Below, piece by piece: positions 7,001 through 10,466 of a DNA stretch of 35,137 bases. The DNA comes from Candidatus Berkelbacteria bacterium CG_4_10_14_0_2_um_filter_35_9_33_12. GTDB lineage: Bacteria > Patescibacteriota > UBA1384 > GWA2-35-9. The notes under the pieces are model-generated. The model was not told where the DNA came from. It was given only the letters and a program-made list of their open reading frames with translations, and did not search any database. The number at the start of each line of letters is the position of its first letter. Position 1 is the first letter of the stretch. Location of the stretch: NCBI GenBank assembly GCA_002793435.1, contig PFQF01000028.1:1-35137 (forward strand), read 5' to 3'. A program made the translations under genes and the position numbers.

Positions 7001-7030
7001 CTTGACAGAAGTCAAGAACTATGCTAAACT
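7001..7030 (+). promoter_or_regulatory. Promoter of the RNase J-like gene with a palindrome over the -35
   Basis: TTGACA (7002-7007), 17-base spacer, TAAACT (7025-7030) with an extended TG just before it. The -35 is embedded in a perfect inverted repeat CTTGAC-AGAA-GTCAAG (7001-7016), which could be an operator or a folded leader element. The ATG is about 55 bases downstream of the predicted start, behind AAAGGA. Confidence 0.65.
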
Positions 7031-8428: not shown

Positions 8429-8434
8429 CAATAT

Positions 8435-8475
8435 CCCGCCCAGCGTACCGAAAGGTACAAACGGCGGGTTTTATT
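8435..8475 (+). terminator. Rho-independent terminator after the RNase J-like gene
   Basis: CCCGCC (8435-8440) pairs with GGCGGG (8463-8468), with an inner GTACC-GAAA-GGTAC stem, followed by TTTTATTATTTG. Confidence 0.88.
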
Positions 8476-8488
8476 ATTTGTTTTTATT

Positions 8489-8520: not shown

Positions 8521-8549
8521 TTGACAATCCCAACAATATATGCTATGCT
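8521..8549 (+). promoter_or_regulatory. Promoter of the hairpin-rich locus
   Basis: Consensus TTGACA (8521-8526), 17-base spacer, TATGCT (8544-8549) with extended TG. The predicted leader is about 145 bases, AT-rich, and ends in AAGGAG seven bases before the ATG at 8700. Confidence 0.7.
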
Positions 8550-8699
8550 ATCAGCACAATCGTTCGTTGACATAGAAATCTTTTTATCAATTTCTGAAAA
8601 ATATAATATCTCTAATCTAAAACCGTAATCATTCGGTCAGGGAAATATATTATAAAAGAAATTTGGTAATTAGAAATACAAAAAAAGAAGGAGAAAAAA

Positions 8700-9566
8700 A
8701 TGGGAAAGAACATCCCAATACGTCGGCATGAGGCTGGCGGACAGAGAGAAAAAAAGGATGATCAGCACCCACTAAGAGACGGGCAGGCTGATGTCCTTGT
8801 TACGGTAGTCGGTACGCACGGCAGTGAGCGTGCGTACGCAGAGGTAGCACAGATTATCTCCTCGAATATCGAGGAGCTGGACGAAGGCATGAAGGTTTTC
8901 GTCCAGGATACGGTTGCCGAACGAATGGTTCGCGACCGAAAAGGGCAATGGGGCCCCGGATCACAAATGGTGGTCCGGGTATCCCGGAATACGAGTGAGA
9001 AGTTCTCCCAAAAGTGGCCCCTTTGGGGATTCTTTTGGGACATGTACCACACGGACAATGTCCGAGTGGTACCCCGTGACCCCGACGATGTCGTCGAGGA
9101 GCAAAATGCCTCGTCGATCGAGAGTCTTGAGAAAGAAATACTCGATCTTGTTGAGCGCAAAGAAGCGCTCAATGTTAACGACACCTGTCTCGAGCAGAAG
9201 ACGCTCGAGGCTGTCTGTGCTCTCGAGTTGCTCTTGTCCGAGGAGGATATGGGTAAAATCGATGAGCGAGAATGGGCGGCAAAGATCGCGTTGACTTCGC
9301 TAAAGAAGTCAATCGCGATACTGGAGCGTCCTGGAGAATTCCAGTCGGGTGTCAAGGACCGATGTGGGTCCTTGGTCGAGCGCCTCCGGGCGTCGATCAA
9401 GAAGATGCCACCGCCCACTCGAAAGAATGGCAACGGCTCCTCCCCGAGTGGGGAGGAGGGTCACCTAACGGTGACCATTGCTGACATCGTCGGCAATCTG
9501 GAGCTGAACCCCGCCCAGGACAACCCCGACGATGTCGTCGAGGAGCCGGAAGCCATTCCGGCATAA
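8700..9566 (+). CDS. Unrecognised 288-residue protein encoded by a GC-rich, hairpin-tiled gene
   Basis: I do not recognise this protein. The frame has a good AAGGAG site and protein-like composition: a basic/polar N-terminus (1-28), a putative alpha/beta core DVLVTVVGTHGSERAYAEVA (31-50), an aromatic patch (106-116), a long helical, acidic region (137-210) and a Pro/Gly-rich linker (236-255). The octapeptide-like PDDVVEE occurs twice (128-134 and 276-282), from a 24-base DNA repeat at 9079-9102 and 9523-9546. The HGSE at 40-43 faintly recalls the HxxE zinc pair of aspartoacylase-type deacylases, but the rest does not confirm it. GC is about 55% by sampled lines, against about a third in neighbours, and the DNA is packed with perfect hairpins. 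Other frames are also long and open here, so the coding call rests on the ribosome binding site and residue pattern. Confidence 0.65.
   Translation: MGKNIPIRRHEAGGQREKKDDQHPLRDGQADVLVTVVGTHGSERAYAEVAQIISSNIEELDEGMKVFVQDTVAERMVRDRKGQWGPGSQMVVRVSRNTSEKFSQKWPLWGFFWDMYHTDNVRVVPRDPDDVVEEQNASSIESLEKEILDLVERKEALNVNDTCLEQKTLEAVCALELLLSEEDMGKIDEREWAAKIALTSLKKSIAILERPGEFQSGVKDRCGSLVERLRASIKKMPPPTRKNGNGSSPSGEEGHLTVTIADIVGNLELNPAQDNPDDVVEEPEAIPA
8812..9562. other. Tiled array of about nineteen short hairpins inside the 8700-9566 frame
   Basis: Arms (bp)/loop (nt): 8812-8837 9/8; 8858-8876 7/5; 8877-8906 9/12; 8918-8932 5/5; 8955-8979 9/7 with one G.U; 9006-9040 9 outer plus CCCC/GGGG inside; 9044-9072 7+5 with one A.A mismatch and 3-nt loop; 9083-9096 5/4; 9116-9147 7/18; 9151-9172 8/6; 9189-9209 7/7; 9285-9319 8/6 extended by 6 across a bulge; 9320-9345 6/14; 9353-9374 8/6; 9381-9392 4/4; 9437-9458 9/4; 9459-9476 7/4; 9477-9497 9/3 with one G.U; 9545-9562 7/4. 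Several abut exactly (8876/8877, 9319/9320, 9458/9459, 9476/9477). Confidence 0.9.
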
Positions 9567-9802
9567 CACTTCCCCCTGTTCTAGGCACCCCGCATTCGTT
9601 GGGCAGGGGTAGAAGGGAGGTGATGGGCTTTGAAGAAGCCTGGTCATCTGGAATTTTGGGGCGCTGGGGTGCCCGTTGAAGACTTAAAGGGAAGCCATCC
9701 CCAGTTCCGGCTTCCCGAACCCCTTTCCTGGTAGGGGATGCGTAAAAATTAACCGGGAGGAGAGAGCGACCAGGAATGGCTCTCTCCTCCCATCCATTTA
9801 CA
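9567..9802 (+). other. Structured GC-rich 3' region of the hairpin locus
   Basis: Hairpins continue after the stop codon: CCCCTG/CAGGGG (9573-9609), GGGCTT/AAGCCT (9625-9641) inside GATG/CATC (9622-9648), GGGCGC/GTGCCC (9659-9674, one G.U), GGGAAGCC/GGCTTCCC (9689-9716), CCCCT/AGGGG (9720-9737) and a perfect 13-bp GGGAGGAGAGAGC stem with an 11-base loop (9755-9791). It does not show the landmarks of RNase P RNA, tmRNA or SRP RNA. It could be a non-coding RNA, a structured untranslated region, or house the small gene at 9630. Confidence 0.6.
9630..9734 (+). CDS. Possible small protein, 34 residues, behind an ideal ribosome binding site
   Basis: GGAGGTGAT at 9616-9624 is complementary to the canonical 16S rRNA 3' tail over nine bases, far stronger than any other site in the window. 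A TTG start follows nine bases after GGAGG and opens a 34-codon frame beginning MKKPGHLEFWGAG and ending LPEPLSW, with plausible protein composition. It would be co-transcribed with the 8700 gene. The site is partly inside a GATG/CATC stem, so translation may be controlled by folding. An overlapping ATG frame at 9623 (17 codons) is too close to the site. I do not recognise the product. Confidence 0.45.
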   Translation: MKKPGHLEFWGAGVPVEDLKGSHPQFRLPEPLSW

Positions 9803-9834
9803 AACCTGTCAGCAATGCGCTGAGCGGGTTTTTT
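9803..9834 (+). terminator. Rho-independent terminator ending the hairpin locus
   Basis: AACCTGTCAGC pairs with GCTGAGCGGGTT (two G.U pairs and one bulged A) around a five-base loop, followed by a T run (TTTTTT). Confidence 0.85.
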
Positions 9835-9860
9835 CTTGTCAAAAAACGAGAGAGAGTAGG

Positions 9861-9903
9861 AAAAGTAGGTTTGGTAGGTAACTTAGGTCAAGTAGGTTAT
9901 AAT
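9861..9903 (+). promoter_or_regulatory. AGTAGGT-type repeat ending in a -10 box, leaderless geometry
   Basis: AAGTAGGTTTGGTAGGTAAC and AAGTAGGTT are the complement of the ACCTAC word family. The run ends in TATAAT (9898-9903), six bases before the ATG at 9910. A repeat copy therefore appears to be fused to the promoter of the four-helix gene. Confidence 0.6.
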
Positions 9904-9909
9904 ACTAAT

Positions 9910-10466
9910 ATGTCTTTGCGGTATGAAAACTTAATAATTTACAAACAAGCTGTTATTATCTTTTCTTTGATCTAAATGATTATTTTTGTAAAACCTATCT
10001 TAAGGACTATGCTGAAAAGCGAACCGTTGAACAGATGCAACAAGCGTCAAGAAGCGGAAAACAAAACATAGTTGAAGGTATCTCAGAGATTAGTACAAGT
10101 TTACAGATAAATTTAGTGGCTGTTTCAAAAGCATCTTACCTAGAGTTTCTTGAAGATTATAAAGACTATTTGAGCAGAAACAGATTTAAAGTTTGGGACA
10201 AAAATGACCCTAGTTTATCTGTAATTAGGTTTTCTTCTACTACCTACCAGACCTACCTAACCTACAAAATCCTACCCATTTCTATCAAAAAACTTCTTAC
10301 TCAACCAGAGTCTTTTTGTAACTTAATGATAACTTTATTGAATCAAGAAACTTATATTATGTTGGATAAGTTTGTCAAAACACTTGAGAGCCAGTTTATT
10401 AAAACTGGCGGTTATGGAGAAAACCTGACCAAAAAAAGACTTGATTTTCGGAGAAAAAAGCAGTAG
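9910..10466 (+). pseudogene. Four-helix-bundle suffix protein, frameshifted
   Basis: The first frame, from ATG 9910, encodes MSLRYENLIIYKQAVIIF and stops at 9973-9975. The next frame, readable from about 9966, continues FDLNDYFCKTYLKDYAEKRT, then QMQQASRSGKQNIVEG from 10029 on, to the stop at 10466. Joined, they match the pattern of the four-helix-bundle/S23-like family (YENLIIYKQA..., RSGKQNIVEG, LEDYKDYL) common in Patescibacteria. The break lies in a TCTTTTCTTT run, where a four-base duplication would explain it. The 3' part is intact, so this may be recent decay, an assembly error, or internal initiation at 10035. Residues TTYQTYLTY (10238-10265) come from an in-frame ACCTAC repeat. Family function is unknown. 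Confidence 0.7.
10238..10277. repeat. ACCTAC-type repeat inside a coding frame
   Basis: CTACTACCTACCAGACCTAC followed by CTAACCTACAAAATCCTACC lies in frame within the four-helix gene and encodes a Thr/Tyr-rich stretch. The same word family occurs between genes at 6209, 6951, 8489, 9861, 10461 and 11691. Confidence 0.6.

Follow-up and report, generated by a model that had tools for sequence, protein, structure and literature searches.

Dense local hairpins within translated RNA are known from the genomes of single-stranded RNA phages. In bacterial coding regions, folding in excess of that in codon-shuffled controls is a tendency described as common (Gebert et al. 2019, PMC6544989, citing Katz and Burge 2003), and long, heavily folded bacterial transcripts are exemplified by GOLLD, ROOL and OLE (PMC12286853). 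The present work concerns a gene whose 288-codon open reading frame (ORF) is tiled with hairpins and which lies downstream of a gene for a short RNase J-like enzyme, in a stretch of 35,137 nucleotides (hereafter the window) from the ultrasmall Candidatus Berkelbacteria bacterium CG_4_10_14_0_2_um_filter_35_9_33_12 (assembly GCA_002793435.1, contig PFQF01000028.1). Like the phage genomes, this locus combines dense local hairpins with translation, but it is a DNA-encoded cellular gene with a sigma-70-type promoter and a terminator; neither coat nor replicase genes of single-stranded RNA phages were found, and no phage family matches. Like GOLLD, ROOL and OLE, it is predicted to give a long and heavily folded transcript, but one that is translated, matches no Rfam family and has no architecture fixed between sister species. 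The neighbouring enzyme shares with RNase J the two catalytic domains and their metal-binding motifs, and differs from it in being about 450 amino acids long, without the C-terminal part of the canonical enzyme of 560-700 amino acids. In the open-licence literature, no such single extreme gene, no pairing with a short RNase J subfamily and no group of folded, GC-rich orphan units from Patescibacteria was found described. The analysis covered 55 genomes of the class and 380 of the phylum, among them the source genome of the window (G000), the sister species Berkelbacteria bacterium GW2011_GWA2_35_9 (G001) and two class genomes from another family (G032 and G050).

The strength of the folding was determined in relation to shuffles in which the protein and the exact codons are held fixed, with dinucleotide shuffles run beside them, a comparison suggested in an initial annotation made from the sequence alone. 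The local minimum free energy of the ORF is -388.9 kcal/mol, compared with -262.6 kcal/mol in the codon-preserving shuffles (z -12.5), and the global minimum free energy has a z value of -12.7; for dinucleotide shuffles the corresponding values are -11.4 and -12.0. An exhaustive scan for perfect hairpins (arms of at least 7 base pairs, loops of 3-12 bases) finds 11 within 8812-9562, and the shuffle script counts 10 in the ORF, where the shuffled sequences have 0.82 on average and never more than 3 in 100 shuffles; the annotation had counted ten and estimated about 0.5 by chance. Its figure of about 25 short hairpins likewise agrees with the local minimum-energy fold, in which the ORF has 26 hairpin loops, the whole unit has 35 and 63% of the ORF bases are paired. 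Two of the junctions at which hairpins were said to abut (8876/8877 and 9458/9459) are exact, and at 9476/9477 the hairpins abut in the fold. Each 120-nucleotide stretch of the ORF is more strongly folded than its codon-shuffled versions (z -1.1 to -6.5), and the three codon positions are paired to nearly the same extent (0.66, 0.62 and 0.63). The 3' untranslated part is folded as well (z -4.3), but the leader at 8550-8699 is devoid of structure (z 0.08), so that the tiling, described at first as running through the unit from end to end, does extend through the ORF but begins there and not at the promoter. Among the 511 ORFs of the genome this one ranks first in folding, 11 standard deviations from the genome mean, and the count of hairpins in 750-base windows of the genome agrees with this ranking. 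Five further genes in the window have local z values from -3.2 to +0.8, in keeping with the statement that no other gene there is alike, and the GC content of the ORF is 55.5% while that of the whole genome is 30.6%. Gebert et al. 2019 (PMC6544989) also used codon shuffles with protein and codon usage fixed and found an effect of the same sign, extra local folding; theirs, however, is a tendency over many genes, whereas here a single gene stands far out, with near-perfect hairpin tiling, high GC content and an RNase J-like neighbour. As sources of the hairpins, the shuffles rule out chance as well as composition and codon usage. The observation of the initial annotation is confirmed, the effect being stronger than stated there. 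Selection acting at the RNA level on the folding of the ORF is well supported.

The two strands can be distinguished by their energies. Both are far below their shuffles, with RNA energies (z -12.8/-9.7) as well as with DNA energies (z -12.3/-11.8). With RNA energies, sense minus antisense amounts to -44.5 kcal/mol, a value that none of 120 shuffles reaches (-15.4 +/- 9.4 kcal/mol); there are 24 G-U pairs in the sense strand and 13 in the antisense strand, and with DNA parameters the asymmetry is gone (z -0.2). The same lean towards the sense strand is seen in a GC-rich unit elsewhere in the genome (L052, described below), in the fragment of the gene present in the sister species and in G032 (1 in 40 shuffles each). 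From the sense-strand excess, which arises via G-U pairs, it follows that the transcript rather than the DNA is favoured as the object of selection.

The sister species holds the last 80 codons of the gene at the end of a contig, in the same position and with the same downstream genes, and comparison with it therefore covers the last third of the coding region. The differences between the two species fall 5, 3 and 21 times on the first, second and third codon positions, and there is one in-frame indel of 9 bases. The ratio dN/dS of nonsynonymous to synonymous substitution rates is 0.12 on the shared codons, similar to that of neighbouring genes. From the preserved frame, the in-frame indel and this ratio it follows that the protein is constrained. 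The hairpin transcript, whose Shine-Dalgarno region is open and whose leader is unstructured, is a translated mRNA and not an ornate RNA that stands by itself. AlphaFold2, run on a three-sequence alignment, gives a mean pLDDT of 37.8 and helices only, at about 138-231. The dS of the gene, 0.44, is below the 0.81-1.06 of tsaD, a four-helix gene and yidC, so that silent sites seem to be additionally constrained; the RNase J-like gene has a similarly low dS of 0.49, and the shared low value may reflect a regional effect on silent sites. The 243-nucleotide fragment in the sister species is itself strongly folded for its codons (z -4.8, rank 3 among 600 ORFs of G001). When its base pairs are compared with those of the window, 0.85 are retained, which is what random substitution gives (0.856); the 80 pairs include one double change and one G-U. 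Because foldedness is kept while the specific pairs are retained no better than by chance, selection appears to be for generic folding and not for one architecture. Among the individual hairpins, GGTCACC-TAAC-GGTGACC, within 9437..9500, has the same letters in both species, the third hairpin of that group has one compensatory pair (T-A to C-G), and the second copy of a 24-base repeat (9523..9546) has one pair that is mismatched in the window and matched in G001. Among the origins proposed in the initial annotation, the one that finds support is an mRNA selected for local folding, on the grounds of the low dN/dS, the low dS, the codon-controlled structure and the sense-strand excess.

The enzyme encoded upstream, absent from that annotation as were the further units of like kind described below, retains the HGHLDH motif and the downstream histidines. 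The short forms make up a distinct subfamily, their length is 445-450 amino acids, and the canonical C-terminal domain was not found. A canonical RNase J is encoded elsewhere in the genome, downstream of a DHH-type gene (G000:C4). A profile built on the short form gives 688-741 bits in three genomes and at most 202 bits with any other RNase J of the 380 phylum genomes. The short enzyme and the GC-rich gene occur in the same four of the 55 class genomes, and at all three readable junctions the ORF that comes after the enzyme gene is a GC-rich orphan and has a strong promoter to itself. In G032 and G050 this orphan frame lies 3' of the enzyme gene on the same strand (242 amino acids and 63.5% GC in G032, 262 amino acids and 57.3% GC in G050), it has a TTGACA-17-ATGC-type promoter whose -35 box sits in the right arm of the terminator repeat of the enzyme gene, and its folding per base is strong, -0.41 and -0.32 kcal/mol. 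The G050 match (E 0.017) was at first suspected to be due to chance, a suspicion that was dropped once the RNase J-like gene appeared beside it. Since the hairpin gene travels with the RNase J-like paralogue under a like promoter, the two probably act together; and adjacency to this enzyme in every relative that can be checked, in combination with the extreme hairpin folding, suggests that selection acts on the RNA as such, perhaps so that it withstands RNA-cutting enzymes or engages them.

The second and third folding ranks in the genome are held by two further GC-rich orphan units, L040 and L052. The L040 gene (G000:C23:555-1151; 61-63% GC) has remote relatives in as many as seven further genomes of the class, and the surrounding region (L040:367-1320, G000:C23:367-1320) shows this orphan, in a 31% GC genome, with nested 5' hairpins and the same promoter type as the hairpin unit. 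The L052 unit (L052:16771-17295, G000:C36) is conserved in the sister species as L069. It lies ahead of rplS (L052:16550-17490; L069:1-790, G001:C10) and contains many hairpins, among them CCCTCCCTC..GAGGGAGGG, and two small frames, one of which encodes a Cys-rich, zinc-ribbon-like peptide (VRCxxYGHKPxSxSCVRTQRNGGKKxCxxCP); L069 has no match in Rfam, and its second frame none in Pfam. Promoter sites with ATGC before the -10 box number only four in G000, and they precede the hairpin gene, the short RNase J gene, the L040 gene and the operon of the canonical RNase J. At 30 class loci that have this promoter, first genes exceed neighbouring ORFs in folding for their codons (p 0.0005) and in GC content (p 0.002). 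That the motif is special to hairpin genes was also considered, and this idea has weakened: it is a strong site of sigma-70 type in general use across the class, with many sites in 39 of the 55 genomes and few in a reversed control.

Taken as a whole, we consider that a strongly transcribed orphan mRNA has been selected for dense, generic local folding, probably for nuclease resistance, and is linked to the RNase J paralogue, an account to which about half of our confidence is given. Nuclease resistance of the mRNA and a functional tie to the enzyme are, we infer, the likeliest elements of an explanation. The A+T-rich leader would leave ribosome loading free, while the hairpin-tiled body and the 3' hairpins would impede attack by endonucleases as well as by exonucleases, with RNase J entering at the 5' end and PNPase at the 3' end; the short RNase J-like enzyme could be the dedicated decay or processing enzyme of the hairpin mRNA, or both products could serve in one pathway. 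Several observations weigh against this account. The codon-controlled excess in the G032 and G050 genes is modest (z -3.3 and -2.7), and control ORFs, too, show a folding excess linked to GC content (r -0.46). Sense-strand asymmetry is lacking in the G050 relative and in the L040 gene, and rplS, which encodes a ribosomal protein and is presumably highly expressed, has no comparable structure. The GC-rich proteins are weakly similar (pairwise blastp to G050, 7.5e-5), and a profile of the G032 and G050 proteins does not recover the protein of the window (E 8), so that the case for homology is made chiefly by position and common character. In the sister species the contig end cuts off the 5' two thirds of the gene, the RNase J-like gene is truncated and the junction is not readable. 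There (L076:1-830, G001:C17) the short RNase J-like gene ends at residue 332 and is followed by unrelated sequence to the contig end; the break is either a rearrangement or an assembly join.

A rival explanation, which we regard as a minor possibility, reverses the weight of the two products: the transcript would serve the adjacent RNase J-like enzyme as substrate, decoy or feedback sensor, in a two-gene regulatory module of Patescibacteria whose partners act on each other, and the protein would be secondary. It accords with the restriction of both genes to the same four class genomes, with the promoter type common to the two genes in the window and with the placement of the -35 box inside the enzyme terminator repeat in G032 and G050, but the protein is under normal constraint, the structure excess in G032 and G050 is only modest, and no conserved RNA motif was found. 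It is equally tentative that such a module exists and that, jointly, its mRNA stands at the extreme of a larger class of GC-rich orphan mRNAs, the bodies of which are under selection as structure.

Origins at the level of DNA, either by template switching that perfects imperfect palindromes or by selection for single-stranded DNA structure to limit transcription-linked mutation, are in our view unlikely. Structure of this kind in single-stranded DNA is reported to be selected in highly transcribed genes, where it limits such mutation (Hoede et al. 2006, as cited in PMC6544989), and both the low energies of the two strands with either parameter set and the association with strong promoters fit an origin in the DNA; the sense-strand excess, shared by the L052 unit, the G001 fragment and G032, does not. 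That the hairpins set the speed of translation, for instance by pauses for co-translational folding or targeting, is distinctly unlikely: the structure does lie within the coding region, the leader being free of it, but the hairpins are spread evenly along the frame instead of lying at domain borders, their places are not conserved, and the 3' untranslated part is folded too. A large structured RNA of fixed, ornate architecture with an incidental frame fits the density and perfection of the hairpins, and a large ornate RNA was among the proposals of the initial annotation, but it is highly improbable in view of the frame with its Shine-Dalgarno sequence and dN/dS, of pair retention equal to the random null, of about 170 bases of the 3' part missing in the sister species, and of a search in which no Rfam family matches the unit and only two chance hits, far under thresholds, appear at E<=1. 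The acquired element also proposed there is not needed as an explanation, and to a recently acquired GC-rich gene or mobile element without special structure almost no credence can be given: the GC content is far over that of the genome and the protein has no relative in Pfam, PHROG, PADLOC (where no model of known anti-phage defence matched) or the PDB, but the structure exceeds that of shuffles with the gene's own codons, the locus is the same in G001, the gene is GC-rich in each relative beside the same enzyme subfamily, also in another family, and protein searches of viral contigs, phages and plasmids gave no match. A scan of genome contigs found the G001 contig only.

The layout of the hairpin unit, with the promoter and terminator that the initial annotation had placed at 8521 and 9834, is given in Table 1. 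By its sequence it appears to be a monocistronic, translated orphan gene, for which strong transcription is predicted from the promoter.

Table 1. Coordinates in the window of the hairpin transcription unit and the RNase J-like gene upstream of it
Feature	Position	Strand	Basis and remarks
Promoter of short RNase J-like gene	7002..7030	+	TTGACA-17-TAAACT, ATGC ahead of -10; site shared with G001 (C17:1878-1906)
Short RNase J-like gene, 445 amino acids	7091..8428	+	Metallo-beta-lactamase and beta-CASP domains, without C-terminal domain; Pfam RNase_J_b_CASP 3.6e-15
Terminator-like hairpin ending RNase J-like gene	8434..8476	+	Sequence
Promoter of hairpin unit	8521..8549	+	TTGACA-17-TATGCT, sigma-70-type, ATGC extension; one of four such sites in G000
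5' leader, A+T-rich, unstructured, 150 bases	8550..8699	+	Local minimum free energy z 0.08, -0.089 kcal/mol per base
Shine-Dalgarno AAGGAG, ATG 6 bases on	8688..8693	+	Sequence
288-codon frame with 26 local hairpins tiled along it	8700..9566	+	Scan, shuffles, fold; dN/dS 0.12 on 80 codons common to G001
Two perfect abutting hairpins, 8 bp with loop 3, then 9 bp with loop 12	8858..8906	+	Hairpin scan
24-base exact direct repeat, copy 1	9079..9102	+	Encodes PDDVVEE, hairpin-forming
Three abutting hairpins	9437..9500	+	Hairpin scan, G001 comparison
24-base exact direct repeat, copy 2	9523..9546	+	Frame as in copy 1
3' untranslated segment	9567..9750	+	9578-9745 largely absent from G001
13-bp perfect hairpin	9755..9791	+	Both arms same in G001
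Intrinsic terminator	9803..9834	+	Sequence

Within the 3' stretch missing from G001, the window has at 9617-9677 the sequence GGGAGGTGATG, followed by an 18-codon frame (MGFEEAWSSGILGRWGAR). Downstream of the unit, at 9913-10466, lies a four-helix-bundle-type gene (182 amino acids in G001), the first part of which is broken by a 5-base insertion at 9959-9963, so that only 143 codons from 10035 remain open. It is flanked and entered by TAGGTAGGT-like repeats in inverted copies (9856-9901 and 10241-10265), and similar stretches are found on other contigs of G000 and G001. Divergent from the DHH/RNase J operon is an A+T-rich gene (L021:17240-18364, G000:C4; L106:4040-5221, G001:C11) whose folding, given its codons, is strong in the two species alike, with ranks 5 and 2. 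In G001 a short, GC-rich structured transcript with a near-consensus promoter, a GGAGGAGGACCGG hairpin and a terminator (L096:6940-7160, G001:C23) has no match in Rfam and is a candidate small RNA.

As a rule, selection on how coding sequences fold shows up as a weak statistical tendency; here it is strong in one gene. The near-equal pairing of the three codon positions suggests that RNA folding may shape the protein too, which, if so, would help to explain the orphan look of such genes. The RNase J paralogue and the GC-rich orphan units together provide a testable handle on how reduced bacteria keep chosen mRNAs alive.
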